Shown here: positions 10,615-25,062 of the stretch, piece after piece
Layout of the letters: each line of letters begins with the position of its first letter
How positions within the stretch are numbered: position 1 is the first letter of the stretch
Source of the DNA: Allomuricauda sp. CP2A
GTDB taxonomy: Bacteria > Bacteroidota > Bacteroidia > Flavobacteriales > Flavobacteriaceae
Assembly (NCBI RefSeq): GCF_001683915.1
Contig: NZ_LXTT01000026.1
Span: forward strand, 1-64,000
Direction of reading: 5' to 3'
DNA: 64,000 bases
Notes under the pieces: generated by a model
What the model saw: only the letters and a program-made list of their open reading frames with translations
What the model was told of the DNA's origin: nothing
The model's database searches: none
Position numbers and translations under genes: made by a program

Positions 10615-11647
10615 ACCCACCCATATCCTTATCATTCGGTTCTCCGCCATGGGCGATGTGGCCATGACCGTTCCTGTGATTGGCACATTGATCAAAAAGT
10701 ATCCCGATGTACAGCTGACCGTACTCACCAAGAAACACTTTATCCCCATTTTTCATGGACTGGACAGGGTAACCGTGGTTGAGGCCGATGTAAAAAAAAG
10801 GCATAAAGGCCTTATGGGGCTTTGGCGGTTGTACCAAGAGTTGAAACCACTGCAATTTGATGCGGTAGCCGACCTCCACAATGTGTTGCGCAGCCGGGTG
10901 CTGAAGAAGTATTTTGCACTGGATAGGATTCCCTTTGTGCAAATTGATAAAGGACGAAGGGAGAAAAAGGCACTTACCCGTTCCAAGAACAAAAAGTTTC
11001 AACAGCTCAAGACCACCCACCAGCGTTATGCTGATGTTTTTGGGGAACTCGGTTTTCCGATTGATTTATCCCATACCAAACCCCTAGAACGAGTTGAACT
11101 TTCGGAAAAAGTGCTGGACTTGGTGCAGCAGGATACCAAAAAATGGGTAGGCATTGCTCCTTTTGCTGCCCACGAAGGTAAAATGTATCCGTTGGAATCC
11201 ATGGAAGCGGTGATCAAGACCCTGAACGATACCGATAAGTATAAAATATTGCTTTTTGGCGGCGGGGATAAGGAAGTGGAAGCGTTGGAGCGTCTTTCGA
11301 ATACCTATGAAAATGCTTTGTGCATGGCCGGAAAGCTAAATCTGGCCGAAGAACTGCAATTGATTTCCAACTTGGATGTGATGCTGTCCATGGACAGTGG
11401 CAATGCCCACTTGGCAGCCAATTACGGAATTCCGGTGGTAACGTTGTGGGGCGTTACCCATCCGTTTGCTGGGTTTTATCCGTTCCATCAACCTTCAGAA
11501 AATGCATTGCTGGCCAATCGGGAGGAGTATCCGCTGATACCCACATCAATCTATGGAAACAAGCTGCCCCCGGGATATGAATCAGCCATGAAGAGCATTC
11601 AACCCCAACACATCTTGGAGAAACTCACTGAAGTTTTAGACGGCTAG
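10598..11647 (+). CDS. Glycosyltransferase family 9 (heptosyltransferase-like)
   Basis: A 349-aa GT-B enzyme. The N-terminus HILIIRFSAMGDVAMTVPVI is the GT9 signature (RxSAMGD), and the C-terminal Rossmann domain carries VGIAPFAAHEGKMYP, ILLFGGGDKE, and DSGNAHLAANYGIPVVTLWGVTHP with the nucleotide-sugar-binding site. It should add a sugar to the LPS inner core at the inner membrane; the exact sugar is not known. The start is a GTG at 10598, inside the DUF4254 gene. Its stop overlaps the stop of the convergent TetR gene in a shared CTAG. Confidence 0.92.
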   Translation: MNKKGKPTHILIIRFSAMGDVAMTVPVIGTLIKKYPDVQLTVLTKKHFIPIFHGLDRVTVVEADVKKRHKGLMGLWRLYQELKPLQFDAVADLHNVLRSRVLKKYFALDRIPFVQIDKGRREKKALTRSKNKKFQQLKTTHQRYADVFGELGFPIDLSHTKPLERVELSEKVLDLVQQDTKKWVGIAPFAAHEGKMYPLESMEAVIKTLNDTDKYKILLFGGGDKEVEALERLSNTYENALCMAGKLNLAEELQLISNLDVMLSMDSGNAHLAANYGIPVVTLWGVTHPFAGFYPFHQPSENALLANREEYPLIPTSIYGNKLPPGYESAMKSIQPQHILEKLTEVLDG

Positions 11648-12258
11648 GCTGTTTGAGTTGCCGAAATCGACTTAAAGTATTGCTTTAATTGTTGGATGTA
11701 TTGGTATTTTAACTGGCGGTTACTACTGTCCGTCATTAAAGAGCGCATTCCCAAATACGAAGCGATGATATAGGTGGCCGTTCCCTCACAATCCACATGG
11801 CGGGCAATATGGCCATCCAATTTCCCTCTTTTCAATACAGCGACCAGGTTGACCTCCCAAACACTGATAATGTTTTTAAGGTAGCCGCAGATTTCTTCGT
11901 TGCGCTTATTGAATTCGGTCAAGAAATCGTTGAGCATAAAACCGTAGGCCATTTCATTCTTCTTGCCGGGCTCCAAGGCGTTTTCCAAGCTTTCGATGAT
12001 TACGGGCAGGGGATTCTCATCCGTGTCCAGTGGCTCAATCAAAAGTGCGTAGACTTTTTGCACAATAAGGTTCTGCACAATATTGATAAAGTAGTCTTCC
12101 TTGGATTTAAAGTGATGGTAAAAGGCACCTTTGGATAGGGACAGTTCGGTGAGGATATCATCCAAACTGGTGTTGTAATAGCCTTTTTCACTGAAGATTT
12201 CGAGGCCTTTCCCGCACAAGCGGTGCATGGTCTCCCTTCGTTTGAGGGTCATTTCCAT
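11644..12258 (-). CDS. TetR/AcrR family transcriptional regulator
   Basis: A 204-aa protein with an N-terminal TetR DNA-binding domain: ILTELSLSKGAFYHHFKSKEDYF (about residues 32-55) is the helix-turn-helix plus the following helix. The C-terminal ligand/dimer domain is mostly helical and not diagnostic. TetR proteins normally repress genes carrying a 15-20 bp palindrome. An ACCGAC-6-GTCGGT palindrome lies 139 bp upstream of this start, and similar sites recur near the arsenosugar operon, so autoregulation and a local regulon are plausible (inference). The ligand is unknown. Its stop overlaps that of the convergent GT9 gene. Confidence 0.92.
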   Translation of the reverse strand: MEMTLKRRETMHRLCGKGLEIFSEKGYYNTSLDDILTELSLSKGAFYHHFKSKEDYFINIVQNLIVQKVYALLIEPLDTDENPLPVIIESLENALEPGKKNEMAYGFMLNDFLTEFNKRNEEICGYLKNIISVWEVNLVAVLKRGKLDGHIARHVDCEGTATYIIASYLGMRSLMTDSSNRQLKYQYIQQLKQYFKSISATQTA

Positions 12259-12396
12259 AAGATTTGGGTTTAGACTGTTGGGTCTGTAACAAAGATTGAT
12301 CGGAAAAGGGCCAAACCAAAGAATTCAAGATGTACTTCCCTATAAAATCGGTAAAGTGTTTAAAAATCGGTGAACCGCCAAAATCACAAAATCCAA

Positions 12397-12414
12397 ACCG
12401 ACTCGTGGGTCGGT
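12397..12414. promoter_or_regulatory. TetR-operator-like palindrome P1
   Basis: ACCGAC-TCGTGG-GTCGGT: two perfect 6-bp half sites separated by 6 bp, the form typical of TetR/QacR operators. It lies 139 bp upstream of the TetR gene and begins the repeated leader in front of the FISUMP gene. Confidence 0.65.
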
Positions 12415-12499
12415 CAAACGATAGGATGGACTCGTCAAAAGGAGAGGGCAGGGCGTAAATTGTGGATGGATTTTTAAGCTAAAAATCGTTAACTTCACT

Positions 12500-12519
12500 C
12501 CTGTCTGCCGACAGGCAGG
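12500..12519. repeat. 20-bp palindromic repeat (copy identical at 58747)
   Basis: CCTGTCTGCCGACAGGCAGG, a nested palindrome whose exact 20-bp sequence recurs at 58747-58766. Diverged relatives are at 13971-13990 and 18966-18985. Confidence 0.75.
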
Positions 12520-12606
12520 TACCTGTGCTGAACGCAGTTGAAGTATTAAAAACGAATCATATCTTTAAACGTTAGCGGTCATATAGACCAAAAAAATCTG
12601 AAATAA

Positions 12607-13719
12607 ATGAAAAAATATCTCTCCAAAATAATTTTCCTGCAAGTCCTCTTCACATATATGATTTCTTGTTCCGATGAACAAAGCGAAAATCAAGACATAC
12701 CGCTCACTGCAGAATTCGAAACTTTTGACAACATATGTTCCGAAGGAAACGATGGAAGAATCTCTATTTCGGTAATAGGCGGAGAACCTCCATACAGTTA
12801 TTCATGGTCTAATGGTGAAATAACAGAAGACATATCGCAACTTAAAGCAGGTAGTTATTCGGTAACCATCTTGGATTCAGCAGGTGAAACTGAAGTATTG
12901 GGAGAAATACAAATATTCGATATTAATGATGAAATATCTATTGAGGAAAACATTACACATATTGATGAAAACGAAAATGCAGCGACCATTAATATTTCCA
13001 TATCTGGAGGATCACCTCCTTATTCCTATCTGTGGTCAAATGGTTCAACGTCCAAAGATCTTAGTGATATTTTGGAAGATGGGATTTACGAAATAATGGT
13101 AACAGACGACAATGGATGCAAAAAAAGTAAAAGCATGCGAGTTTATAAAACCATTCTAGATATTGATGGTAATACTTATCGAGTTGCGACTTTTGGTTCC
13201 CAGACTTGGATGGTCGATAATTTAAAGGTAACCAGATTCAATGATGGAACAATGATACCTCTCGTCACTATCGAAAATGAATGGGTGAATGCTGGAGACA
13301 CGGCCCCGTTCACTGAAGCTTATACTTGGTATGAGTACAATTATGAAACTTATGGTGCATTTTATGGTGCATTATATAATTTCTACACTGTTAATAAAAA
13401 CAACTTGTGCCCCTCGGGTTGGCGAATACCGAATACATCAGATTGGTTCAACTTAATAGATTTCGCTGGAGATAGTCAATCCCAAGCTGAGAATCTTCTA
13501 GAAGAAAGCTTTGGTTTTCTTCCTGTTAAAGGAGGGTATTTGTTAAACTATGATGGTAGTGCCACCTTTTCAAATATTAATAATAGAGGATATTGGTGGT
13601 CAAGCGAAAGTTATTCAGGCGGTGAAGCTTGGTCAATGCACATTCCTGGGGTAAGTGACGGATTGGTTTGGATAAATGGCAAAGGAGATGGCTTGTGTGT
13701 TCGATGTATTAAAGAGTGA
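12607..13719 (+). CDS. Lipoprotein with two SprB-type repeats and a FISUMP domain
   Basis: A 370-aa exported protein. Residues 1-21 form a lipoprotein signal ending in YMISC. Two SprB-like repeats follow (about 35-95 and 115-175), each with GGxPPYSYxWSNG and a terminal VTDDNGC or equivalent. The C-terminal domain (about 185-370) has GSQTWMVDNL, NNLCPSGWRIP, WWSSES and the final LCVRCIKE of the Fibrobacter succinogenes major paralogous (FISUMP) domain. It is probably surface-exposed and may bind glycans or other cells, but no activity is known. It lies alone between a repeated leader and a hairpin-rich trailer, and its codons are more AT-rich than the core genes, so it looks like acquired cassette cargo. 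Confidence 0.85.
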   Translation: MKKYLSKIIFLQVLFTYMISCSDEQSENQDIPLTAEFETFDNICSEGNDGRISISVIGGEPPYSYSWSNGEITEDISQLKAGSYSVTILDSAGETEVLGEIQIFDINDEISIEENITHIDENENAATINISISGGSPPYSYLWSNGSTSKDLSDILEDGIYEIMVTDDNGCKKSKSMRVYKTILDIDGNTYRVATFGSQTWMVDNLKVTRFNDGTMIPLVTIENEWVNAGDTAPFTEAYTWYEYNYETYGAFYGALYNFYTVNKNNLCPSGWRIPNTSDWFNLIDFAGDSQSQAENLLEESFGFLPVKGGYLLNYDGSATFSNINNRGYWWSSESYSGGEAWSMHIPGVSDGLVWINGKGDGLCVRCIKE

Positions 13720-13735
13720 AAATGTTAAAATACAA

Positions 13736-13854
13736 CCGCTAACGATGGCTATAAATAATTGCTTGTTCTGGTCTACTTCTGAAAATCCTAGCGGATTTTC
13801 AGTTTGGTGTTTACTTGCAAAGTTAAGTGCTAACCCGCGCAACTACTCATAGCC
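13736..13854. repeat. Hairpin-rich trailer of the FISUMP cassette (attC-like fold)
   Basis: Part of the 324-bp gap 13720-14043. It opens with CCGCTAACG (13736-13744), the exact inverse of CGTTAGCGG at 12570-12578 before the gene. Imperfect 16-bp arms at 13747-13762 and 13839-13854 match 13 of 16, and the three differences become G-T pairs on the bottom strand. Inside is a perfect 10-bp stem, CTGAAAATCC/GGATTTTCAG, at 13779-13802. The canonical integron 7-bp core is not matched. Confidence 0.55.
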
Positions 13855-13895
13855 GAGACCGACAAGTGAAATCACTCAAACCTAATCTAAAAAAT

Positions 13896-13945
13896 CAAGC
13901 CACCGTCCCCTTGGCAACCACTTCTTGCCCATGTACCCGGATCAT
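13896..13945 (-). pseudogene. arsS 3'-end remnant T1
   Basis: About 50 bp resembling the last codons of arsS (22552 onward): on the minus strand TGCCAAGGGGACGGTGGCTTGA aligns with the arsS end TGTCAGGGGACGGTGGCATAG, with one base inserted. Upstream codons are mostly lost. It is the shortest and most decayed of the three copies. Confidence 0.6.
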
Positions 13946-13990
13946 TAAGCCAAAAAACGTTAACTTAACTCCTGTTTGCCGATAGGCAGG
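13945..13990. repeat. Partial leader repeat copy 3
   Basis: TTAAGC, then CGTTAACTTAACTCCTGT and a GCCGATAGGCAGG palindrome, match 12474-12519 with a few changes. It directly follows arsS remnant T1 and precedes the pectate-lyase-like gene. The remaining 13991-14043 shows no clear element. Confidence 0.6.
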
Positions 13991-14043
13991 TAAATAGTTT
14001 AACGACCTGTTCTTCAAGAATGGAGAACCCGAAATAAAAACAG

Positions 14044-15681
14044 ATGAACCTCAAGATCAATTCGCTGCAACTAATTGTCTTGGTACTTATAGCTTTTCAA
14101 ACAAAAGCCCAAGATTTAGTACCACCAACCTCAAAAATATACCCCGGACCCAACGGAAAACTTGTCTACGTAAAAGATGATAAGGGAAATCAAATTCCAG
14201 ATTTTTCCAATGCCGGGTATAAAGGCGGAGGAGAGGCACTCCCCTATGTGCCCGTAAAGGAAACAGTGTGGCCCGTACTTGGGGATAATTCCGGCAGCAT
14301 CCAGGCTGCCATAGACAGGGTGTCGGCCCTGCCTTTGGATGAAAATGGATTCAGAGGCGCTGTACTCTTAAAAATGGGATTTTATCAGATGGATAAAGAA
14401 ATTTACATCCGAAAATCCGGTGTAGTCTTAAGAGGCGAAGGCCAAAGTGATATTGGCACCATTCTTTACGGCAAGATTCCTACACCACCAGAAGGTAATG
14501 GCAGAAGATTTTGGAGACCTGCTCTTATCAAGATAGAGGGAGAAGAAGGCATCAGCTTGATTGAAGATTCAAAAACGACCCTAACGGACGATTATGTGGC
14601 TGTAGGGGCCACTACGTTCCAGGTGAAATCAGCTAAAGGTTTCAAAGTTGGCGACCAAGTATCCATCAAAAGAATTGGGAATGAAGAATGGATTGAAGAA
14701 ATTGGACTGGATAGCGCAACTGTTGGCAGAAATCGGTGGAAACCCTTTGACATCACCTTCGACCGCATCATTAAAAACATCAGTGGAAATACCATTACGG
14801 TTGATGCCCCTATTTTCACCGCAATTGAAAGTCAATGGGGTGGTGGTGAAGTAACCAAATACACGGACAACAGAATAGAAAATGTAGGGGTGGAAAACCT
14901 AAGAGGAATATCGGAATACGATCCTTCTGTGCGCCAAACTGCTTATGGGAACATGGACCGTGATGACCTTGGTGAAGAGCACCGATACCATGGAGAGGAG
15001 TATTTTTCGGATGAGAAACATTATTCAAACTTCATCAATCTCACCAATGCAAAAAATGCCTGGGTGCGAAATATGACCGCTTTACATTTTGCCAACAGTG
15101 TGGTTCAGGCCAATGCCGGCACCAAATGGATCACCGTTCAGGATTGTACGTCTCTGGAGCCCGTTTCCCAACGATGGGGAGGCAGAAGATTTACTTTCCA
15201 AATGAACGGTCAATTTTGCCTGGTACAACGATGTGTTTCCCAAAAAGGGCGTCACTCCTTTGTGCTTCAGGGGTCGGAAGCAAGTGGAAATGTGTATTTG
15301 GAATGCACCGCCATAAATCCGTATTCTTCAAGTGAGCCACACAACCGCTGGGTAAATGGAGTTTTATACGATAATGTAAAAGCTCCGCTCACGGCCCGGT
15401 TTTGGGATTATATTATTGGCTGGGCCGGAGCCAATATTGTTTTCTGGAACTGTGAGGGCGACTACCTCATTCAAAGTCCGCCGACTGCTGAAAACTACTC
15501 ATTCGGTCATATTGGGGTAAATGCAGTGGTCTATAATGCAGCACTACAAGATGTAACCAAGCCCAATGGCTTTGTGGAATCTACCGATAAGCACGTTACG
15601 CCAAAGAGTCTTTACCTGACCCAACTCAAAGAAAGACTTGGGGAACAAGCGGTATTGAATACCATGAAGACCGGTTATTGA
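14044..15681 (+). CDS. Secreted right-handed beta-helix protein (pectate-lyase-superfamily-like)
   Basis: A 545-aa protein with a signal peptide (residues 1-22, ending QTKA) and a parallel beta-helix layout. SIQAAIDRVSALP at about residue 85 is the start typical of the pectate lyase superfamily/GH28-related fold; VVLRGEGQSDIGTILYG (about 130), then NAKNAWVRNMTALHF, WITVQDCTSLEPV and VQRCVSQKGRHSFVLQG read as successive coils. It probably acts on, or binds, a polysaccharide outside the cytoplasmic membrane; substrate and catalytic residues are not clear, so lyase, epimerase or binding protein all remain possible. It converges on the SMP-30 gene at 15755 across a strong terminator. Confidence 0.75.
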   Translation: MNLKINSLQLIVLVLIAFQTKAQDLVPPTSKIYPGPNGKLVYVKDDKGNQIPDFSNAGYKGGGEALPYVPVKETVWPVLGDNSGSIQAAIDRVSALPLDENGFRGAVLLKMGFYQMDKEIYIRKSGVVLRGEGQSDIGTILYGKIPTPPEGNGRRFWRPALIKIEGEEGISLIEDSKTTLTDDYVAVGATTFQVKSAKGFKVGDQVSIKRIGNEEWIEEIGLDSATVGRNRWKPFDITFDRIIKNISGNTITVDAPIFTAIESQWGGGEVTKYTDNRIENVGVENLRGISEYDPSVRQTAYGNMDRDDLGEEHRYHGEEYFSDEKHYSNFINLTNAKNAWVRNMTALHFANSVVQANAGTKWITVQDCTSLEPVSQRWGGRRFTFQMNGQFCLVQRCVSQKGRHSFVLQGSEASGNVYLECTAINPYSSSEPHNRWVNGVLYDNVKAPLTARFWDYIIGWAGANIVFWNCEGDYLIQSPPTAENYSFGHIGVNAVVYNAALQDVTKPNGFVESTDKHVTPKSLYLTQLKERLGEQAVLNTMKTGY

Positions 15682-15698
15682 TTTGAATTACTCCTAGT

Positions 15699-15734
15699 AA
15701 AAAAAACCTCCAAGATTTTCTTGGAGGTTTTTTT
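15699..15734. terminator. Bidirectional terminator between convergent genes
   Basis: A 15-bp perfect stem (15701-15715 with 15719-15733; core CCTCCAAGA/TCTTGGAGG) with a 3-nt loop and A/T tracts on both sides. It serves both the gene ending at 15681 and the one ending at 15755. Confidence 0.92.
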
Positions 15735-15754
15735 ATTTCGTTTTGTAAAACTGC

Positions 15755-16744
15755 TTATCTCATCTCCACTCGGAGAAGCTTATCGGTAGCGGTTATGTAA
15801 AGCGTTTTTTCGTCAGGAGAAAGCGCCACATTTGCAGCTGTAAGTCCATTGACTTTTATCTTACCGATCAATTTCCCTTTTTTGGTAAAAATCCACACGC
15901 CACCAGGACCTGTAGCAAACACATTTTCTTTCTTGTCGATTTTTAACCCATCGCAGCCACCGGGAGCTTTTATATCCCCTGGAGACGCAAATACTTTTCC
16001 ATTTGATACACTTCCGTCAGAAGCAATATCATACGAATACCATCCTCTTTTTGGTCCCGCGGTATTTGAAACCAATAAGGTTTTTCCATCAGGGAATATG
16101 GAGATTCCATTTGGAGTTGACAATGAATCGATCAACACGGTAAGCTCACCAGATTTACTCAATTTGTAAACTCCCTGAAATTCCAATTCCTTCTTTGGGT
16201 CACTTGGACCATTCTCAAAACCGTAGGCCGGATCTGTGAAATACAAATCACCAGCTTCGGTAAGGAAAAGGTCATTGGGGCTGTTCAATCCTTTGCCTTC
16301 ATACGCTCCAATTACCGTGGTGAATTTGGCTTCAGGGGCATCCAAGGGTGCATCAAGCTCAGCTATTCTTCGATCGCCATGCTGACAAATCCATAAGTTG
16401 CCCTTGTGGTTTAAGATCATGCCATTTGGTCCCATAAAACCCCCTCTTGGAGCTGGGTCTGTATAGCCTCCCGGTTTTACAAAAACAGAGGCTCCATCCT
16501 TCTCGGTCCATTGGTAGATGGTATTTGCCGGTACGTCAGAAAACAAAAGCATTTTTTTGTCCGCTACCCAGAGCGGTCCTTCCGTAAACTGAAATCCATC
16601 AGCGATGACCTCGATTTCGGCGTCCTTTTTTACAATTTTCGCCAGTTCATCGGAAACTACTTCGATTTCGCCCACTTCTTGAGCGAATCCATGGTAGCCG
16701 ATGCTTAAGGAAAGAATTCCTGCAATCAAAAAATTTCTATTCAT
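15755..16744 (-). CDS. Exported SMP-30/gluconolactonase-type beta-propeller protein
   Basis: A 329-aa protein with a signal peptide (residues 1-21, ending GFAQ) and an SMP-30/gluconolactonase propeller. Family motifs are FTEGPLWV (about 50), MGPNGMILNHKGNLWICQHGDRR (about 105-130), GLNSPNDLFLTEAGDLYFTDPAYG (about 150-175, metal-binding Asn/Asp) and TPNGISIFPDGKTLLVSNT. Such proteins usually hydrolyse sugar lactones with a bound divalent cation; this copy should act in the periplasm or outside. It lies 16 bp downstream of the bicupin-SMP-30 gene, so the two form an operon. Confidence 0.88.
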   Translation of the reverse strand: MNRNFLIAGILSLSIGYHGFAQEVGEIEVVSDELAKIVKKDAEIEVIADGFQFTEGPLWVADKKMLLFSDVPANTIYQWTEKDGASVFVKPGGYTDPAPRGGFMGPNGMILNHKGNLWICQHGDRRIAELDAPLDAPEAKFTTVIGAYEGKGLNSPNDLFLTEAGDLYFTDPAYGFENGPSDPKKELEFQGVYKLSKSGELTVLIDSLSTPNGISIFPDGKTLLVSNTAGPKRGWYSYDIASDGSVSNGKVFASPGDIKAPGGCDGLKIDKKENVFATGPGGVWIFTKKGKLIGKIKVNGLTAANVALSPDEKTLYITATDKLLRVEMR

Positions 16745-16760
16745 GGTTTTGAGATTGTTC

Positions 16761-18722
16761 TTATAGATAGTTAATATATCCTGTTTTATTTGTTTCGATT
16801 TTGTAAACTTGGCTATAGCTTACCATGTAGAGCGTTTTCATATCTTCTCCACCAAAGCAAAGGCTTACGGGGAAAGAAGGCAGGTTGATCATCCCAACGA
16901 AAGTGCCCTCCGAGTTAAAAATCTGTACGCCGTAGTACGTGGCCACATAAAGGTTTCCATCGGTATCAATGGCCATTCCATCTGCGCTGGTGGATTTCCC
17001 TTTTCTGTCCAGAACATTTCCGGTAAGGAACACCTCTGCAAATTGCCTTCCGTTGCTTATGGTTCCATCATCATTTACATCATATGCCCAGATAAAATTA
17101 TCCTTTTCACTATCCACGGGATACCAAGACTCATTGTCATAGCAGTTGTTGATATACAGGGTTTTGCCATCAGGTGATAGGACTATCCCGTTTGGCATGG
17201 CAAATTCATTGGGTTCTACGATCCGTGTGATTTCACCTTCTGGAGACACATAGTAAACCGCTCGACCGGGTTGGAATTTTTCAGCCTCCATGGTAAACTG
17301 TGGATCTGTAAAATAAATCCCACCCTTGGCATCCGTGATGATATCATTTGGACCATCAATAGGTTTTCCGTCATAAGAATCCACCACAGTTCGAACAATT
17401 CTTCCATCCGTGGTCATTTCCAGCACTCTGTGGCCGATCATATCACAAACCAAAAGATTGCCATTTTTATAAGGGTAAAGCCCATTGGTTTGGATCCCCT
17501 CCTTGATATTTCTGTAGGTACCATCTGGATCCATTTCCACAGTGGAGCTCTTACTGGGGTCTGCATTCCAGGCAGCATCAAAGAACATATTGGATAGATA
17601 AATCTTTCCATCCATCCATTTGGGTCCTTCTGTGAAATACAGTGGCGGCTCCGTTTCACTGCCATCAGCGATCAATTCAGGTTCAGCCCCTTCCGGAATA
17701 ATTTCCCGGTAGGCTTCGAGGGCCGCCTTTTCTTTATCCAAATAATCCTGACGAGCAGGCCAGAATATATCCAAAGCATCGGTACCCAATTCACCAATCT
17801 CTGCGCCGTGCACCATGTTGCCAGGGATACGAACAACACTATTGGGCGTCATTTTTTGTTTGGTGTCCAATAAGATTTCCTCACACTCCCCTCTAAGGGC
17901 AAACATCATTTGTTCCTGAGGATGGATGTGATGAGGGAACGCAGATCCGGGACCCATGGAAATAAAGCTCAATTGTGTATTTCTGCCTGAAACAAGTCTT
18001 GAGTAAGCCCCGTCAGCCAGTTGCGTCAACTGAAAATCATAAAGATCATAGACTGTATTAGGTTCTACGTTTGGAGGCATGGTGGTGGCTACATCCGAAA
18101 TGGTTTCAGGAAGATTTGATATTCCAGCCTTTTCAAGATAGTCCAGTCGTAGCGGTGAATACACTTCCAATAACTGCGCTCCGGATTCACCGGCGGTTAC
18201 TCCACTTTCCGTTCCTTTTTCCAGATAAACAAAGTCAATTCTGGGAGTGGCGCTATGCACGCCATCCGGCGCTTCCCTTTCTCTTGAAATAAGTGTGACA
18301 GGATTTCCATCTATCATCTGCTCAATGGATCCTTCCATAACAAAGACAAAGCGATCAGCAGGGAGTTCTTCGGCTGGTATTTCAGCATTGGGAGAAAGCT
18401 CCAACACACTTACCATATTTCCCGTTCCCCAAAACATTGATGCCGTGATTCCCGGATACAACTCCAAGGTGGTCAACGTCTCCAGATCGGTTACCTCACC
18501 TGCTTCCAGATTTGATTCAATTTTATGTTCGGGTAAGTCCGATAGTTCGCGAACCGTAAGATCATGTTCGGCAATCAATGCGTCGTTTTTTTCCTTCCAT
18601 TTAGGTCCAGATGGGGAGCATCCTACCAGTACGATGGTAAGTGCAGCAATACAACTGCTATAAATAAAGTGTTTGGTCAATTTCCAATTCATGGGTGCTT
18701 GGTTTTTATACATTGATATCAT
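16761..18722 (-). CDS. Lipoprotein fusing a bicupin to an SMP-30/gluconolactonase propeller
   Basis: A 653-aa protein with a lipobox LVGC near residue 35 when read from the start used. The ATG at 18692 would give a tidier signal peptide (MNWKLTKHF...) and may be the true start. Residues about 60-330 form two cupin folds; the second has the metal-binding HHIHPQEQ and an MVHG histidine. Residues about 350-645 are an SMP-30 propeller with YFTEGPKWMDG, DGPNDIITDAKGGIYFTDPQF and FAMPNGIVLSPDGKTLYINN. A lactone- or uronate-related reaction outside the cytoplasm is plausible, with the cupin acting on a linked step (inference). The first cupin lacks an obvious His cluster. It forms an operon with the SMP-30 gene at 15755. 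Confidence 0.85.
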   Translation of the reverse strand: MISMYKNQAPMNWKLTKHFIYSSCIAALTIVLVGCSPSGPKWKEKNDALIAEHDLTVRELSDLPEHKIESNLEAGEVTDLETLTTLELYPGITASMFWGTGNMVSVLELSPNAEIPAEELPADRFVFVMEGSIEQMIDGNPVTLISREREAPDGVHSATPRIDFVYLEKGTESGVTAGESGAQLLEVYSPLRLDYLEKAGISNLPETISDVATTMPPNVEPNTVYDLYDFQLTQLADGAYSRLVSGRNTQLSFISMGPGSAFPHHIHPQEQMMFALRGECEEILLDTKQKMTPNSVVRIPGNMVHGAEIGELGTDALDIFWPARQDYLDKEKAALEAYREIIPEGAEPELIADGSETEPPLYFTEGPKWMDGKIYLSNMFFDAAWNADPSKSSTVEMDPDGTYRNIKEGIQTNGLYPYKNGNLLVCDMIGHRVLEMTTDGRIVRTVVDSYDGKPIDGPNDIITDAKGGIYFTDPQFTMEAEKFQPGRAVYYVSPEGEITRIVEPNEFAMPNGIVLSPDGKTLYINNCYDNESWYPVDSEKDNFIWAYDVNDDGTISNGRQFAEVFLTGNVLDRKGKSTSADGMAIDTDGNLYVATYYGVQIFNSEGTFVGMINLPSFPVSLCFGGEDMKTLYMVSYSQVYKIETNKTGYINYL

Positions 18723-18862
18723 TTTGTTAGGTCATAAAACAACAGAGGCGATACGTAAGGCTATGAAAAACCCCCGCCATTCCCAAAAATACACGAAATA
18801 ATCAATGATGTAGAATATATTGTGTGATTATAACACCTCAATCGTTCAAACCCTAAAAACAA

Positions 18863-18880
18863 ACAGGCTTATGGGTCGGT
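18863..18880. promoter_or_regulatory. TetR-operator-like palindrome P2 (one half degenerate)
   Basis: ACAGGC-TTATGG-GTCGGT. The right half and the following CAAACGATAGG are identical to P1; the left half matches ACCGAC at four of six bases. It lies 142 bp upstream of the bicupin gene start. Confidence 0.5.
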
Positions 18881-19080
18881 CAAACGATAGGGTGGATGCG
18901 TTGAAAGGGATGACGTAACCATCAATTGGCCCCGGAAATCTATAGCTAAAAATGCTAATTTCATTCCTGTCTGCCGACAGTTAGGTACTTGTGCTGAACC
19001 AGCCCAACCCACAGACGGGCCTGTTTCGGTTTCGGTCGATTTAATTCATTTAAAATTGAATCATACCTTAGAACGTTGCC
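18863..19080. repeat. Leader repeat copy 2 (cassette-type upstream flank)
   Basis: It fills most of the 379-bp gap 18723-19101 and is homologous to 12397-12578: same order of operator half, GCTAAAAAT, CTGTCTGCCGACAG palindrome, TGTGCTGAAC and GAATCATACCTT before AACGTT (19072-19077). About 35 bp with a CCCACAGACGGGC stretch is extra in this copy. 18723-18862 shows nothing recognisable. Confidence 0.7.
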
Positions 19081-19101
19081 CTCCATTAAGAAAAAGTAAA
19101 A

Positions 19102-19815
19102 ATGACAGCAAAAGAGAGTATAGAAAATCTTTACGAAACATTCAAAAAGTATAAATTGAATGGAAAGATTGCAAAATGTCCCTGCGGCTGTATTTCGGAT
19201 GAAGACGAGAAAAAAATATATTCAAAACCCCTCAGAGACTTAGAAGCTGATGATATTGGATTTTACAATGCAAAGGCAATGACAACATGGGGAAATGTAG
19301 AAAATTACAAACACTTTCTTCCCAGAATCATTGAAATTTATAAAGAAGGAAAAGGAAAAGGATGGATAGATTTAGATACGATTCACAACAAACTGGAACA
19401 TGCAAATTGGAAAGAATGGGAGGAAGAAGAGCAAAAACAGATAAATAAATTTGTTGAAATTGATTGGAAAGAATTAGTCAATAAATCTGAAAACAAAATT
19501 TGGATTGGAGATTTTGAATCATATCTAAATTACTTCAATTTTGAAGAACTATTCAAAATGTGGGAATTTCCAGAGAATAAAATTGCCTTAAAAAATTTCG
19601 TTGAATTCTTCTATATGAATGGAAACGAAATTTTGTATTCTGATAAAATAATCAAGTCCAATGACAAAGACAGACGAAGTAAATTATTGAATCTTCTCGA
19701 AAGAGATAATTTGACAATAGGATTGGAAGAAGAATTCTTTGATCATGAAATGGATGATAAAGAATATGCAGATAAGGTTTCAACAGTTTTACAAATGATT
19801 GAAAATGGGTTGTAA
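19102..19815 (+). CDS. Uncharacterised AT-rich protein with CPCGC motif
   Basis: A 237-aa soluble protein I do not recognise. Near the N-terminus is AKCPCGCIS (about residue 25), a possible metal site, followed by a mostly helical, acidic and Trp-rich body: NKLEHANWKEWEEEE near 95, WIGDFESYLNYFNFEELFKMWEFPE near 135-160, and an acidic C-terminus. No signal peptide or membrane helix is seen. Codon use is strongly A-ending and the region more AT-rich than neighbours, suggesting transfer. It stands alone behind leader copy 2, flanked by AACGTTGCC and its near-inverse GGCAACATT, so it looks like cassette cargo. Defence or immunity is possible but unsupported. Confidence 0.75.
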   Translation: MTAKESIENLYETFKKYKLNGKIAKCPCGCISDEDEKKIYSKPLRDLEADDIGFYNAKAMTTWGNVENYKHFLPRIIEIYKEGKGKGWIDLDTIHNKLEHANWKEWEEEEQKQINKFVEIDWKELVNKSENKIWIGDFESYLNYFNFEELFKMWEFPENKIALKNFVEFFYMNGNEILYSDKIIKSNDKDRRSKLLNLLERDNLTIGLEEEFFDHEMDDKEYADKVSTVLQMIENGL

Positions 19816-19916
19816 AAAAAAACGAAAGGCAACATTGTGTAAATGCTCATTTTTGGTAAGGGCCCAGAAAGCCAGTTTAGATGAGACCGATAAATGAAAA
19901 ACACTTCCTAGAAACC

Positions 19917-20000
19917 CAAGCCACCATCCTGGGCAACTACTTCCCACACTTCCCGTACACCCATAACAATGTTGTGAAATCATAATTTCACGATGATCCT
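19917..20000 (-). pseudogene. arsS 3'-end remnant T2
   Basis: Reading leftward it encodes GQDHREIMISQHCYGCTG, nearly the C-terminus of ArsS (DREIVISQHCYGCT), then GSSC. A one-base loss then shifts the frame and removes the stop. The remnant is about 84 bp. Most of the gap 19816-20183 around it is AT-rich without another recognisable element, apart from the GGCAACATT trailer at 19828-19836. Confidence 0.85.
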
Positions 20001-20183
20001 GTCCCTTCCATATATGTTTAAAAATGAGTGGTTTACAATATAATTTGTTACAAACAAAACAATTGTGTTGAATATACACTTTATTCAAATTTTCATAACG
20101 CATAATTGCTATATTTAGTATTCCGCAATTTTTTAAGTTAAAAATTGTCAAACTCTCTATCAACAACCTCAATTTATGAAACA

Positions 20184-21341
20184 ATGAAAACAAGAGCTTT
20201 TAGTACCCTGGGGATAGTTTTGCTATTCTTGGTATTTGCATGTTCCAAGGATAGCTTGGAATCTTCAGAAGAATTACAGCCAGAGCTGTTGACGGCCAAG
20301 CACAAAAAAAAGGACTTGGATTGGAGCGTAGAGGCCGAAATCTATGACCCCTATTCCTTGATTTCGCCAAGTGCCCATGATGAATTGACCCCTATCCAAA
20401 ATGGTTTTGGGTTTACGGAAGGTCCGGCAGTGGACAAACACGGCAATGTCTTTTTTACAGACCAACCCAACGACAGAATTTATAAGTGGTCCGCTAGAAG
20501 CGGTCACGTATCACTGTTCTTGGAAGGAACAGGACGTGCCAATGGTATGGCTTTTGACAAGGATGGAAACTTAATTGCCTGTGCCGACCTTCACGGGGAA
20601 CTGTGGAAAATTTTTCCAGACGGAACCCATGAAGTCCTTATCGACAACTACAACGGCAAACTCCTGAATGGGCCAAACGATGTATGGATCAATCCTATAA
20701 CGGGGGGCATGTATATCACCGATCCTATTTTTCCACGGGACTATTGGGAAGAGGGTGATCCAAGAATACAGCCTTGGGAGCCTACCCATTCCGAGCAGGC
20801 CGAAACGGGCAAAGGGGGCCATGTGTATTATCTGGCGCCCGGTGCTTCAGAATTGGTCAGGGTAACCACAATGGCCGAATGGAACGATGATTCCTGGCCA
20901 AATGGTGTGGTCGGTAGTCCTGATGGCACCAAACTCTATGTCAACCAATGGCATTATGATGGTACTGGGGGCGTCTTTGTTTTTGATATTAACCCAGACG
21001 GAAGTTTGTCCAACTTGCAGGATTTTGTCCCGGGATTGAACTTCTGTGATGGCATGTCCATGGACGATGAAGGAAATGTCTACGTAAGCAGCGGAGGCAT
21101 TAAGGTATACGCCCCGGATGGTGAAAATATTATGAACATTGATATGCCCGATGGCGCGACCAACAATGTTTTTGCCGGACAGAACAATAAAGAGTTGTTC
21201 ATTACCTCCGTACCCTTTGTATCCTCCATTAAAATGAATGTAAAAGGGGTAGAAAAATTTTCTGGCCGAAGTGGACATGGTAATGGCGGTCACCACCACC
21301 ATGGAAACCATAGGCGAGGGCGAGGCGGAAGAGGCCGCTAG
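20184..21341 (+). CDS. SMP-30/gluconolactonase-type lipoprotein with His/Gly/Arg-rich tail
   Basis: A 385-aa protein. The ATG at 20184 gives a clean lipoprotein signal with lipobox LVFAC at about residues 17-21; an in-frame TTG at 20145 would only lengthen it. The propeller has FGFTEGPAVDKHGNVFFTD (about 75-93), GRANGMAFDKDGNLIAC (about 115), LNGPNDVWINPITGGMYITDP (about 155-175) and WPNGVVGSPDGTKLYVNQW, typical of SMP-30/gluconolactonases. The last 25 residues are a GHHHHGNH-type His/Gly tract followed by Arg/Gly, absent from the other two copies and able to bind metal. It ends at a strong terminator and sits between arsS remnants T2 and T3. Confidence 0.87.
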   Translation: MKTRAFSTLGIVLLFLVFACSKDSLESSEELQPELLTAKHKKKDLDWSVEAEIYDPYSLISPSAHDELTPIQNGFGFTEGPAVDKHGNVFFTDQPNDRIYKWSARSGHVSLFLEGTGRANGMAFDKDGNLIACADLHGELWKIFPDGTHEVLIDNYNGKLLNGPNDVWINPITGGMYITDPIFPRDYWEEGDPRIQPWEPTHSEQAETGKGGHVYYLAPGASELVRVTTMAEWNDDSWPNGVVGSPDGTKLYVNQWHYDGTGGVFVFDINPDGSLSNLQDFVPGLNFCDGMSMDDEGNVYVSSGGIKVYAPDGENIMNIDMPDGATNNVFAGQNNKELFITSVPFVSSIKMNVKGVEKFSGRSGHGNGGHHHHGNHRRGRGGRGR

Positions 21342-21369
21342 CAGACAGCAAACTAAACTAGCTTACTGC

Positions 21370-21409
21370 AATATCCCGAAATCTTGAAATAGTTTCGGGA
21401 TATTTTTTT
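21370..21409 (+). terminator. Intrinsic terminator after the SMP-30 lipoprotein gene
   Basis: A perfect 12-bp stem (AATATCCCGAAA at 21370-21381, TTTCGGGATATT at 21393-21404) with an 11-nt loop, followed by a T tract. Confidence 0.93.
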
Positions 21410-21468
21410 GGCTGACCTTAGCCAAATTTCTAGGCCATATTGACCATCCTACGACGTATTGTGAAAAG

Positions 21469-21558
21469 TTAAGCCACCATCCCTTGGCAACTACTTCCGG
21501 CCCCTGCTGCGCAACCGCAACAGTGTTGTGAAATAACGATCTCCCGGCCATTCAATAA
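21469..21558 (-). pseudogene. arsS 3'-end remnant T3, reading frame intact to the stop
   Basis: Reading leftward, codons give EIVISQHCCGCAAGAGSSCQ then GMVA and a TAA, against EIVISQHCYGCTAGAGSSCQ GTVA in ArsS itself: 24 aligned codons with few changes. Upstream codons are absent, so it cannot be a gene. It follows the terminator at 21370 and precedes palindrome P3. Confidence 0.9.
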
Positions 21559-21606
21559 TCCCATTATTATATAAAGTTTTCGACGTGCAAAATTCCAAAG
21601 AAACCA

Positions 21607-21624
21607 ACCGACTAATAGGTCGAT
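21607..21624. promoter_or_regulatory. TetR-operator-like palindrome P3
   Basis: ACCGAC-TAATAG-GTCGAT, one mismatch from two perfect half sites, 135 bp upstream of the DUF4440-like gene and 49 bp from arsS remnant T3. The rest of the 418-bp gap 21342-21759 beyond the terminator, T3 and this site is unremarkable. Confidence 0.55.
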
Positions 21625-21759
21625 TAATCAGCTAAAATCTTGTGTTCAAATATAACAAAGGGCAAGGCAGAGATTTCTACATCAGCATGGGTTGTAACAA
21701 AATGAAATGTTCTCGCTCTTTATGAAGTTGAATATAACCAAAACCTTAATATTTAAATT

Positions 21760-22551
21760 ATGATGGTACGATTAGCTAAAACCTTGATTGTTCTTTTTCT
21801 GTTGTCCCTAGTTTTTCATAAAGCCAATGCCCAAGTAGAGAAGAATACGGCACTATTTAATAAAATAAGAGCATTGGACAGCATTATTTTTGAGAGGGGA
21901 TTTAACGCTTGTGCAATTTCTGAAATTGAGCCTTTTATTGCCGATGATCTTGAGTTTTATCATGATGAAGCTGGAATTACCCAGGGCAAAGAGGCTTTCC
22001 TATCAACAATAAGACAAAATATTTGTTCAAATACCAAGAGCAAGCCAATAAGAAAATTAGGCAAAGATGATTTTAAAGTATATCCGCTTTTTGAAGATGG
22101 TGTTTTGTATGGCGCAGTGCAGAATGGAGAGCATGAGTTTTATAGTAAAGAAGATGGAAAAGAACCCTACTTGACAAGTACCGCGCTATATTCTCATTTA
22201 TGGATAAAGAAGGACAACATATGGAAACTTAAAAGAGTTTTGAGTTTTGATCACCAACCTCCTAAACAGCAAAATACTCCTAAGGAAATATGTGTTCCCA
22301 CTTCTGTTTTGAAGACTTATGTGGGGGAGTATAAGAGCAAGAATACTCAGGCGCACATATCAACAATGGAAAATACACTGATTATGAAATCAGGTACTAT
22401 GGAAATCACCATCTATCCAGCATCTGAAATATTGTTTTATGCCAAACAGGCTCCCTTAACTTTTGAATTTGAAAATATTGAGGGTTCAAAAATTAAGATG
22501 GCGGTTCTCGAAAATGGAAAAAAAGTAGATATTTTGACCAAAGTACAATGA
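21760..22551 (+). CDS. Exported NTF2-like (DUF4440-type) protein
   Basis: A 263-aa protein with a signal peptide (residues 1-25, ending ANAQ). Residues about 30-165 look like an NTF2/DUF4440 domain: IEPFIADDLEFYHDEAGITQGKEAF and the closing strand LWIKKDNIWKLKRVLSFDH are typical. A C-terminal domain (about 180-263) with LKTYVGEYKS resembles the small beta domain (DUF3471-like) seen at the end of exported hydrolases. No catalytic site is evident. Its stop codon directly abuts the arsS stop on the other strand with no base between. It follows palindrome P3 and may be another gene added at the arsS 3' end. Confidence 0.75.
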   Translation: MMVRLAKTLIVLFLLSLVFHKANAQVEKNTALFNKIRALDSIIFERGFNACAISEIEPFIADDLEFYHDEAGITQGKEAFLSTIRQNICSNTKSKPIRKLGKDDFKVYPLFEDGVLYGAVQNGEHEFYSKEDGKEPYLTSTALYSHLWIKKDNIWKLKRVLSFDHQPPKQQNTPKEICVPTSVLKTYVGEYKSKNTQAHISTMENTLIMKSGTMEITIYPASEILFYAKQAPLTFEFENIEGSKIKMAVLENGKKVDILTKVQ

Positions 22552-23640
22552 CTATGCCACCGTCCCCTGACAACTGCTCCCTGCCCCAGCTGTACACCCA
22601 TAACAGTGTTGTGAAATCACAATCTCCCGATCATTCAACAAGTCTTCGTTGTAGTCTTTAATGTGTTTTACCTTACTGGCGACCTTTAGGTCGAGCATCT
22701 GGTTAAAATCGCAATCGTACAACCAACCATCCCAACTCACCGAAATGGTATTGGTGCACATCACGTTTTCCACCGCAGCGGGATTATAGGCCTCGACCAA
22801 GGCGTACATATAATCCTCATAATTGTCCGAAGCGATCAAATAATCCAAAAAGCGGGAAATGGGCAGGTTGGTAATCGCAAACAGATTATGGAACTCAATA
22901 TCAAAATCTTCCTTCAACGCTTTTTTAAAATCGCGTTCCATGGCCGCTTGGTCGCCCGGCAAAAATGCCCCGGAGGGATTATAGACCAAATCCAACCGCA
23001 GGTTGCTGTCCGGCATGCCATAACCCACAGCGTTAAGTTCTTGCAAGGCTTGTATGGATTTATCAAAGACCCCATCCCCACGTTGCTTGTCCGTTTTGCC
23101 CCGAGTGTAATGCGGCATGGACGAGATTACGTGCACATTGTGCTTTTTAAAGAACTCCGGGAGGTCATGGTATTTTTTATTGGCCCGGATAATCGTCAAA
23201 TTGGAACGCACAATAAAATCCTGGATACCCGCTTTGGAGGCTTCTTCCACAAACCAACGGAAATCAGGATTCATTTCGGGTGCACCTCCAGTGAGGTCCA
23301 AGGTGTGCGCTCCCGTATTTCGGATGACCTCCAAACACTGCTCCATGGTCTCGCGGGTCATGATTTCCTTTCGGTCGGGACCAGCATCCACATGGCAGTG
23401 CTCACAAACCTGATTGCACATATACCCCACATTGATCTGCAGGATCTCCAAGGTTTTGGGCTTAAGTGGAAAGTGACCAATCTGGGCAATCTTGTCTTTG
23501 AAGAAAGGAAGTTCGCCATCCGCAAAAAGGCCACCATTGAGGATGTCCAATTGTTTGGTGGTATTGGCGAGTTCATTTTCCCGTGCCTTCAACGACTTTT
23601 TGGCCGCTTTTTTAATATCTGATAATATACTTTGTCCCAT
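22552..23640 (-). CDS. arsS: Arsenosugar biosynthesis radical SAM protein ArsS
   Basis: A 362-aa radical SAM enzyme. The [4Fe-4S]-binding cysteines are in MCNQVCEHCHVDAGP (about residues 73-87), followed by the SAM-binding DLTGGAPEMNPDF (about 115). The C-terminal domain, DUF3641-like, has further cysteines in VMCTNTISVSWDGWLYDCDFNQML and SQHCYGCTAGAGSSC. ArsS is known to add the 5'-deoxyadenosyl group to dimethylated arsenic on the way to arsenosugars. The two genes upstream (peroxidase-like and DUF2064) are its usual partners. The last 50-90 bp of this gene are repeated as remnants at 13896, 19917 and 21469. Confidence 0.95.
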   Translation of the reverse strand: MGQSILSDIKKAAKKSLKARENELANTTKQLDILNGGLFADGELPFFKDKIAQIGHFPLKPKTLEILQINVGYMCNQVCEHCHVDAGPDRKEIMTRETMEQCLEVIRNTGAHTLDLTGGAPEMNPDFRWFVEEASKAGIQDFIVRSNLTIIRANKKYHDLPEFFKKHNVHVISSMPHYTRGKTDKQRGDGVFDKSIQALQELNAVGYGMPDSNLRLDLVYNPSGAFLPGDQAAMERDFKKALKEDFDIEFHNLFAITNLPISRFLDYLIASDNYEDYMYALVEAYNPAAVENVMCTNTISVSWDGWLYDCDFNQMLDLKVASKVKHIKDYNEDLLNDREIVISQHCYGCTAGAGSSCQGTVA

Positions 23641-23722
23641 TTTTAGTTTCTAAAATTGTACACTGGCTTTCTAACATCGCAAAAGCGAAGCGGTCTCATG
23701 TCTAAAAAAGTAGCGTTCCAGC

Positions 23723-24058
23723 CTACATGGAGAGTTTGTTGTACTTGTTCATCATCTGTACGCCATGCACCAAGGTAGCACCACTTTCAATGGCGGCACC
23801 GGCGTGTACCGCTTCCATCATTTCCTCTTTGGTGATGCCACGTTGCAATCCATCTTTGGTATAGGCATCAATGCAGTAGGGGCATTTCACTACGTGGGCC
23901 ACCGCAAGCGCGATCAATGATTTCTCTCTTGCACTTAGTGCACCTTCTTCGAAAACCTTACCATAATAATCAAAAAATTTGTTGCCCAGTTCTTCACTCC
24001 ATTCGGTGATGGAACCAAATTTTCTCAGGTCAGCTGGGTCATAATATGAGTTTGCCAT
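23723..24058 (-). CDS. Arsenosugar-associated peroxidase-like protein (CMD/AhpD fold)
   Basis: A 111-aa helical protein of the carboxymuconolactone decarboxylase/AhpD family. KCPYCIDAY (about residue 70) holds the CxxC pair with the nearby Asp/Tyr, and LSAREKSLIALAVAHVV precedes it, the normal order for this fold. Proteins of this form are regularly encoded with arsS in arsenosugar clusters and are thought to be peroxidase-like; their exact role is not settled. It lies 82 bp upstream of arsS on the same strand and downstream of the DUF2064 glycosyltransferase, so the three form one leftward operon. Confidence 0.9.
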   Translation of the reverse strand: MANSYYDPADLRKFGSITEWSEELGNKFFDYYGKVFEEGALSAREKSLIALAVAHVVKCPYCIDAYTKDGLQRGITKEEMMEAVHAGAAIESGATLVHGVQMMNKYNKLSM

Positions 24059-24159
24059 GTTTTGTTTTTTAGCGGTTTATCGACATGTACCTATATGGCA
24101 TTCGCATGTCGGAATTAAATAATTAAGGGGGCCAAGTTCAAAGACTCGGCATTGATAAA

Positions 24160-24852
24160 TCAGGCAAACGAGAAGGGAGACCCTTTATTAAAAGGAATGT
24201 GTAGAAAAATATTTTTATCGGCGATAAGGCCAATTTCCTGAAATCGGATGGTTTGCCGCAACAGTTTTGAAAAAAGTACCAGCCATGCATCAACTATAGT
24301 TGAGACGTGATTGGAAAGACGTTTTATATCGGTGGTGGAATCAATATCGATTAATCGGTCCAATGAAAAAACCGTACAGCCGGCGGATTCAAAATACTGT
24401 TCCGTTGCTTTGAACAACGAGCTTACTTGCCACGGAAGTGCTTTAAAAGAACACTCGTGAAAGTTGGATTGGTGCAGCCCCAACAAATAAAAACCACCGT
24501 CCACAGCAGGGCCAAGAACGGTCTTGCCAAGCCGTAACTGCTGGTGTGCTTCCAGCAGATGTCGGGTCTTCAGTTGCGGGCTATCGTTCCCAATGGCGAT
24601 GATGTTGGCAAAACCCTTATCATAAACCGATTGAAGGGCATTGGAGAAACGTTCCCCAAACGTCTGCCCGTGTTGTTCCTTTTCCGTAAAATGAAAATAA
24701 GGCAGTCCAGTTGCCTTTACAATGGAAAAAATATGTGCATTGAGGGCATCAAAAAGGGAAGTGTCCGCACCAATTTTTTTGATATGGCTATCCTTCGTCG
24801 CAGAATTTGCGAAGATTAAAATAGCGGTATCTTGAAATGGTTTTTCGCGCAA
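24160..24852 (-). CDS. DUF2064 (TIGR04282-type) glycosyltransferase of arsenosugar synthesis
   Basis: A 230-aa GT-A-like protein. ILIFAN opens the nucleotide-binding half, then GERFSNAL, the acidic IAIGNDSPQL (about residue 95, DxD-like) and LGPAVDGGFYLLGLH (about 125-140), the standard DUF2064 blocks. The usual KTRL motif near the N-terminus is not visible (TKDSHIKK there), possibly a lineage variant. In arsS clusters this enzyme is expected to act on the sugar part of arsenosugar formation. No ATG is in frame before the preceding stop, so the start is a TTG at 24852. It is the first gene of the arsS operon. Confidence 0.85.
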   Translation of the reverse strand: MREKPFQDTAILIFANSATKDSHIKKIGADTSLFDALNAHIFSIVKATGLPYFHFTEKEQHGQTFGERFSNALQSVYDKGFANIIAIGNDSPQLKTRHLLEAHQQLRLGKTVLGPAVDGGFYLLGLHQSNFHECSFKALPWQVSSLFKATEQYFESAGCTVFSLDRLIDIDSTTDIKRLSNHVSTIVDAWLVLFSKLLRQTIRFQEIGLIADKNIFLHIPFNKGSPFSFA

Positions 24853-24959
24853 GCTATTCGATGTTTATCCTAAACATACAACAATTATTACTACTTGTTT
24901 TGGTCGGATCACATCAATTTGAATTACAGTTTTAGGGAGAGCCACCTCAACTTTAACAT

Positions 24960-24977
24960 TCCGACCCACCAGTCTGT
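24960..24977. promoter_or_regulatory. TetR-operator-like palindrome P5
   Basis: On the minus strand ACAGAC-TGGTGG-GTCGGA, sharing GACT..TGGGTCGG with P1 and matching the half-site consensus at 10 of 12 bases. It is 108 bp upstream of the arsenosugar operon start. Confidence 0.5.
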
Positions 24978-25062
24978 TTTGAAAATGAGCGGGTTAGTAA
25001 CTACCGATGTACCCTAAAAATAGTTCGACAAAAAACGTTAAACTACAAGCAAACAAAAATTT

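Follow-up and report, generated by a model that had tools for sequence, protein, structure and literature searches.

Genomic islands that insert at the 3′ end of a gene, those at tRNA ends among them, carry an integrase, use a fixed core and are expected to leave a remnant of the gene end on their far side, and integron gene cassettes are recognised by their defining boxes. Here we examine a locus with traits of both, the arsenosugar biosynthesis gene arsS and the genes behind it, in a 64,000-nucleotide stretch of Allomuricauda sp. CP2A (contig NZ_LXTT01000026.1, positions 1 to 64,000; referred to below as the window) and in related genomes. As with islands at gene 3′ ends, the end of arsS is intact, remnants of it, which we call tails, lie on the far side of the inserted genes, and relatives have empty sites. 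With integron cassettes the locus shares a unit coding for a FISUMP protein, which has cassette borders, an attC-like site and relatives in a one-strand plasmid array; unlike an integron, the arsS locus has no such array or integrase, and its units stand singly beside arsS remnants. Insertion at a gene 3′ end is also described for SGI1 at trmE and for the dusA islands (PMC8409611). At arsS no integrase was found in the eight genomes scanned, and the tails start at different points, although decay could have blurred a common one.

Two further systems invite comparison. The type VI secretion system (T6SS) clusters of Vibrio cholerae have arrays of orphan immunity genes, and homology-facilitated illegitimate recombination has been put forward as their origin; insertion there is serial behind a conserved anchor, older 3′ pieces are moved outward and no integrase is involved, much as at arsS (PMC5361080). 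The incoming T6SS module, however, displaces an effector gene and cognate immunity genes are kept, whereas arsS, the anchor here, is a metabolic enzyme gene that regains its end without a change of protein sequence, and its remnants look like scars without a function. PMC5635113 describes hotspots that lack mobile elements and show recombination in the core genes flanking them; they likewise have variable cargo between conserved genes with no mobility genes seen, but the arsS tails suggest one-sided joins. Homology-assisted illegitimate recombination is discussed in PMC2884548. In the literature searched we found no description of this arsS locus, and no paper that brings arsS, genomic islands and integration sites together. 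This locus differs in that the end of an enzyme gene is restored and the scars look neutral, seen in one genus together with empty sites and a long array.

Tails of arsS and a gene-acquisition hotspot

The interval under study runs leftwards from arsS to two conserved border genes, a TetR regulator gene and a family 9 glycosyltransferase gene (GT9):

22552..23640, minus strand: arsS, arsenosugar biosynthesis radical SAM protein (TIGR04167, E 2.9e-134; DUF3641 and Radical_SAM matches)
22552-22641, minus strand: final 90 bases of arsS, source of the tail comparisons
21470..21558, minus strand: tail T3, arsS 3′ end, 80% identical, in frame with stop (alignment and shuffles)
19920..19997, minus strand: tail T2, arsS 3′ end, one-base gap near its end (alignment and shuffles)
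13899..13936, minus strand: tail T1, the shortest arsS remnant (alignment; corresponding tail in the closest relative, G027)
11644-12258, minus strand: TetR regulator, conserved far border (family match and relatives)
10598-11647, plus strand: GT9, conserved far border (family match and relatives)

A sequence-only reading of the window had proposed that the end of arsS recurs three times to its left, in the same orientation, as the trace of serial DNA addition. All three tails do have the orientation of arsS, and the recurrence is clear for T3 and T2, and weak for T1 taken alone. T3 is identical to the arsS end at 71 of 89 aligned bases, with none of 2000 shuffles equally good; at the protein level it keeps 86% identity across 29 aligned codons, rather than the 24 first counted, followed by the in-frame stop that had been reported. 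T2 is identical at 61 of 77 aligned bases (0/2000 shuffles) and at 77% of 22 codons, and has a one-base gap, much as described from the sequence. T2 and T3 are thus copies of the arsS end beyond doubt, and chance is rejected. T1 is marginal by itself: 32 of its 37 aligned bases are identical and none of 2000 shuffles of its 101-base segment is equally good, but when the whole 10.3-kb interval is searched with shuffled arsS ends, 2 of 300 score no worse, and its genome-wide E value of 2.08 is at the level of chance matches in that search. It gains support from G027, where a similar tail adjoins the same gene, and from the units in which T1 and T2 sit, the other flanks of which are 80% identical to each other.

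A search of the genome (E up to 10) gave 11 matches, among which only arsS, T3 and T2 stand out; hence the arsS tail is not a dispersed repeat, the reading that would have undone the original proposal. Other explanations of the tails and the stretch around them were likewise rejected. The tails are not a known RNA element, with no Rfam match up to E 0.1 in window positions 12000-25000 and none at gathering score in loci L132, L142 and L134. A plasmid carrier found no support, as no plasmid matched the stretch from arsS to T3, nor did a viral one, as no viral contig encodes a relative of the 237-residue protein from the unit beside T2.

We next consider the interval across 36 genomes of the same genus (G000-G035, with G000 the genome of the window), defined from arsS to TetR, or to GT9 where TetR is absent there. 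It is complete in 33 of the 36, the border being missing from the stretch examined in G003, G006 and G024, and it measures 3 bp at its shortest (G016) and about 21 kb at its longest (G004, where TetR came to light in a further stretch). Two of the 33 are empty sites, which the sequence-only reading had suggested looking for in relatives: the GT9 match starts 3 (G016) or 6 (G012) bases past the arsS stop. Tails of a genome's own arsS, lying before different genes, occur in five of the 33 (z = 31 in G000, 30 in G029, 15 in G027, 12 in G021 and 6.2 in G034; the next highest is 2.3; the test in G004 covered its first 18.5 kb), and those of G029, G021 and G034 belong to other species of the genus. 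The arsS-to-TetR/GT9 interval of Flagellimonas/Muricauda is a gene-acquisition (turnover) hotspot, and the variable cargo between arsS and the conserved border, the empty sites and the tails in relatives uphold serial addition at the arsS 3′ end.

Among the Pfam families listed for the cargo are a YoeB toxin, a Bpu10I endonuclease with cytosine methylases, nucleotidyltransferase and HEPN domains, regulators and enzymes. Assigned by eye, a Bpu10I-type restriction-modification set seemingly lies in the hotspot of G020 (L144, 4.3-8.7 kb downstream of arsS), and a nucleotidyltransferase/HEPN pair in that of G021 (L134, 0.4-2.3 kb).

As a control for recurrence of gene ends we used 861 open reading frames (ORFs) of at least 120 residues in 1,006,152 bases, made up of stretches of the window's genome and arsS-centred stretches of relatives, and so partly sampled around arsS itself, and scored recurrence within 15 kb on the same strand. 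The final 90 nucleotides of genes recurred eight times, five times between genes and three times inside ORFs, T2 being among the latter. The five intergenic cases are arsS in the window, arsS in G027 twice, arsS in G029 and one other gene in G008. First-90-nucleotide fragments gave four recurrences and mid-gene fragments three, T2 again among these three. The short G021 and G034 tails fell below the limit of this control.

Insertions in the closest relative and beyond

The cargo of the window includes the following genes, and the closest relative, G027, has an ArsS protein that is 94% identical.

21760..22551, plus strand: DUF4440 gene, adjoining arsS, convergent, its stop abutting the arsS stop (family match)
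20184..21341, plus strand: SGL (SMP-30/gluconolactonase) family gene, common to G027 (family match)
16761..18722, minus strand: cupin and SGL protein, 653 residues, common to G027 (family match)
15755..16744, minus strand: SGL protein, 329 residues, common to G027 (family match)
14044..15681, plus strand: 545-residue protein, common to G027 (partial match to the BT3328 hyaluronate lyase family, 66.6 bits against a cut-off of 1100)

The genes of the 545-, 329-, 653- and 398-residue proteins are 86-88% identical in DNA between the window and G027, and this homology breaks off right at the stop codon of arsS and, at T1, no more than about 10 bases from the stop. Behind arsS the window has the DUF4440 gene whereas G027 has a different, 316-residue ORF; behind T1 the window has the FISUMP gene whereas G027 has ORFs of 173 and 104 residues. 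In G027 the tail that matches T1 lies 7868-7904 bases downstream of the arsS gene. The proposal would have been undermined had close relatives shared the gene order but lacked the tails, and G027 gives a divided answer: it has tails at the places of T1 and T3, but the T2 unit with its 237-residue gene is missing, with about 97 bases at that place. A search for a degraded T2 in G027 gave no support for one (score 9.0, equalled by 613 of 1000 shuffles).

The insertion in G029 comprises four ORFs between arsS and a tail that ends at GT9, and this GT9 junction is the place of the arsS end in the empty sites of G016 and G012. The final 80 bases of the G029 tail (L154, 3648-3727 bases downstream of arsS) are far better preserved than the remnant before them. 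Upstream of these 80 bases lies an older, much more diverged arsS stretch corresponding to about -367 to -163; once the 50 most obvious bases are set aside, its score of 28.5 is barely above the shuffle maximum of 28.0 (n = 1000). The better-kept end suggests gene conversion or constraint on the 3′ region of the neighbour. The G021 tail was first detected at the protein level, by 15 identical residues, and both it and the G034 tail are joined to one hairpin-bearing element.

The first 600 bases behind arsS are common to G007, G010, G013, G017, G019, G022 and G035. They belong to a gene convergent on arsS (translated for G013 and G007), here called gene A, and in G035, read by eye, the stop codons of arsS and gene A overlap. 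The genome nearest to G035 by arsS, G008, has a worn 3′ remnant of gene A at arsS (L150, 0-150 bases downstream), then a 229-residue ORF, and then an intact gene A. This is the mirror image of the events described above, in that the 3′ end of the neighbouring gene A was rebuilt and not that of arsS. The process is therefore not tied to an arsS site, and the event speaks against a recombinase that reads arsS alone.

Cassette-type units and a long array

The sequence-only reading had passed over two units in the window, the FISUMP unit and perhaps the unit of the 237-residue protein, that look like integron-type insertions at one shared insertion point. The features concerned are:

12382..12571, plus strand: left flank of unit U1, with repeats D4 and D2 and the insertion point (repeats, alignment)
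12572..13861, plus strand: integron-type cassette, by its look, with a FISUMP/SprB-repeat protein (12607-13719) and an attC-like site (about 13735-13861) (borders, complementarity)
13939..13992, plus strand: third copy of repeat D2, directly beside T1
18848..19075, plus strand: left flank of unit U2, a homologue of the U1 left flank, likewise with D4, D2 and the insertion point
19076..19889, plus strand: possible integron-type cassette with the 237-residue protein (19102-19815) (borders; same insertion point as the FISUMP cassette)

The FISUMP cassette starts G/TTAGCGGT (12572; a slash marks the border), and the attC-like site opens with its exact complement, ACCGCTAAC, just as the first box of an attC site is complementary to the start of its cassette. 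The site recurs at three other places in this genome, at 15 places on a Persicobacter plasmid, where the genes listed in that stretch are all on one strand, and at one place on a Flagellimonas marinaquae plasmid, about 2 kb from an annotated integron integrase. The unit of the 237-residue protein sits at the matching point, with GAATCATAYCTTWRAACG on its left and AYAARTGAAA on its right; it starts G/TTGCC and has the flanks AACG/ and /AYAARTGAAA. It gave no match to the attC-like profile, and its fold is no better than that of shuffles (z 0.59). As single-stranded DNA neither the FISUMP attC-like site (z -1.82) nor the spacer of the G004 array described below (z -0.04) folds convincingly. Judged by these borders, the FISUMP unit looks like an integron-type cassette and the unit of the 237-residue protein may be one.

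The left flanks of U1 and U2 are 80% identical across 200 aligned bases (0/1000 shuffles), and the two units would represent a region that once lay downstream of arsS, now present twice and holding one cassette in each copy. Their right flanks, from cassette to tail, are alike by eye, a likeness that was dismissed as not significant (598/1000 shuffles). Elsewhere in the genome, copies of D2 (G000:C65:17243-17308 and G000:C91:11823-11889; L161, L162) are followed by an AACG or AACA/TTGGC border and an ORF. It is as if D2 marks an entry point for single cassettes.

These units raise the question whether integron-type cassette traffic made the whole locus, with an integrase encoded elsewhere inserting cassettes at an attI-like point beside arsS ends. 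The FISUMP unit, its attC-like site on two plasmids and the second unit at the same point beside T2 speak for such traffic. It would account for at most two cargo units, however, and the arsS tails fall outside the cassette borders; the attC-like model, run over the scanned arsS stretches, picks up only the site in the window and, weakly (E 1.2e-5), one that lies upstream of arsS in the Winogradskyella locus L061, and at the locus itself contig C66 has no PF00589 match. As an explanation of the locus we find this improbable.

The longest hotspot, that of G004 (L132), contains 19 ORFs of at least 70 residues at 4.6-18.2 kb downstream of arsS, all on the strand opposite arsS, behind a 1039-residue ORF that by eye is a TonB-dependent receptor. 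Nine of its spacers carry one repeat of roughly 155 bases, from which a profile was built; one more copy, in G028 (E 3.4e-15), did not enter it. In a search of 59 genomes with a single copy of the repeat, strong matches were confined to the arsS interval of G004, G034 and G028, all others having E values of 3.8e-4 or weaker. By eye, DoxX-like, Crp-type regulator, 265-residue and DinB-like ORFs stand in the same relative order in the G004 and G028 hotspots with different genes between them, and the first two are also found in that of G034. The arsS locus could conceivably, though we think this unlikely, be a self-reinforcing, integrase-free analogue of an integron, in which each addition leaves a repeat (an arsS tail or a spacer) as homology for the next addition or exchange, with G004 as its mature form. 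If so, the locus would grow more recombinogenic as it lengthens.

Route of gene addition

The sequence-only reading had left the agent open between a recombinase, lost or acting in trans, and homology-aided uptake, and the evidence leans to the latter. A tyrosine or other recombinase, lost or in trans, could have used the last 30-90 bases of arsS as its attachment site, the tails then being attR remnants. Every tail keeps the arsS terminus or nearly so, none is clearly longer than about 90 bases, arsS supplied four of the five intergenic 3′-end copies in the control, and the tails of both G021 and G034 are joined to one shared hairpin-bearing element. Set against this, the tails start at different distances before the arsS end, namely 31 (G034), 38 (G027), 43 (T1), 48 (G021), 71 (G027), 82 (T2), 87 (G029) and 90 bases (T3), a range in which decay could blur a common start, all tails being short; and the mirror event in G008 rebuilt gene A. 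Furthermore, there is no tyrosine recombinase nearby: in eight genomes Phage_integrase (PF00589) had 101 matches and none in the arsS interval, as had been noted for the window, serine recombinases and transposases not being searched genome-wide. No integrase or transposase is among the Pfam families listed (20 of 20, 25 of 27 and 25 of 30) for 86 of 93 cargo ORFs, a list that left out ORFs above 1000 residues and the 322-residue ORF. We regard site-specific integration as unlikely.

The origin of the tails bears on a different alternative, in which replication template switching copied the arsS end locally and unrelated DNA came separately. Compared with 114 arsS sequences (of which L026 and L031 were taken to the wrong stop), a tail's own arsS ranks 25th for T2, 27th for T1, 52nd for G021 and 12th for G034, short tails resolving poorly; it ranks first for G029, tied first for T3, 11th for the near-arsS tail of G027 and second for the other G027 tail. 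Local duplication agrees with the G029 tail and the G008 remnant, each of which matches its own genome best. It leaves unexplained why several species have different genes at precisely the position between gene and tail, and why tails such as T2 and that of G021 are closer to the arsS of other species, and it seems to us a poor candidate.

The genes were probably added by ordinary DNA recombination and not by a dedicated mobile element, and on the whole we think it likely, with some reserve, that homologous recombination anchored in the flanking gene was combined with an illegitimate join, rather than that a site-specific integrase acted. The route would be homology-facilitated illegitimate recombination, for example after natural transformation. 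Riemerella anatipestifer, a flavobacterium, is called naturally competent in PMC8459023. ComEC is present here, which is weak evidence, since 10 of 14 control genomes also have it. Exchange within arsS is suggested by G002 and G019, whose genes share a near-identical tract while the remainder diverges at about 11% of sites: from -423 to -183 there are differences at 10 of 240 sites, and after it at 27 of 180 (P 1.8e-4, with borders chosen post hoc). The edge of identity is sharp, about 180 bases before the arsS stop, and different cargo lies behind it, as if the tract had recently been exchanged between species.

In the proposed sequence of events, DNA from a related genome that carries the arsS 3′ region and other genes would pair with the resident arsS and recombine homologously inside it, while its non-homologous far end would be attached to the chromosome through an illegitimate join in the final portion of the resident gene. 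The product would be a complete arsS with a donor-derived end, then the new gene or genes, then the old arsS-end remnant still fused to its former neighbour. Repetition would shift older tails outward, with T1 farthest and T3 nearest. Afterwards the tails would wear away, probably for the most part starting at the side of the insert, and may supply short homology for later exchange, by which the gene behind a tail can switch, as between T1 and its G027 counterpart. The pattern fits the earlier idea that the gene end was rebuilt each time, with the donor origin of that end, and the order of events, being what we infer.

Several observations weigh against this route. All clear tails are at most about 90 bases long whereas arsS is 1.1 kb, and random joins should leave longer ones too; G029 alone has an older, longer arsS piece, far more diverged than the final 80 bases. 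The shortness could fit decay towards the 3′ end of the neighbour, but also a site-specific mechanism. A test on sister pairs is weak: six pairs with different cargo have 128 differences in the arsS end against 107.4 expected (P 0.03) and three pairs with shared cargo 47 against 46.8, and one of these three, G010-G017, is contrary in showing an excess as well, with 25 against 14.4. The scaled divergence of the final 60 nucleotides is 0.93 for 35 different-cargo pairs against 0.73 for 12 shared-cargo pairs, which are not independent. The best matches of the G029 tail to its own arsS and of the G008 remnant to its own gene A mean that a same-species donor must be assumed there. The place of T2 in G027 has no tail, and the G027 tail beside the SGL gene scores 37 against T2 and 25 against T3; since it is closer to T2, its orthology with T3 is unsettled. 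Finally, the junctions are old, and the donor is a putative one.

Double homologous exchange explains swaps of genes, and not the first addition of genes behind a conserved gene. Many gene-acquisition hotspots are without a mobile element, and at arsS the scars mark the place and side of each addition, so that natural genomes lend themselves to testing a one-sided route. If the tails serve as landing pads, the locus could become an array without an integrase. With its end restored at every addition the anchor gene stays functional, and this may be the reason that a hotspot can have a conserved enzyme gene at its edge; the scars of the arsS end are a readable record of gene acquisition.

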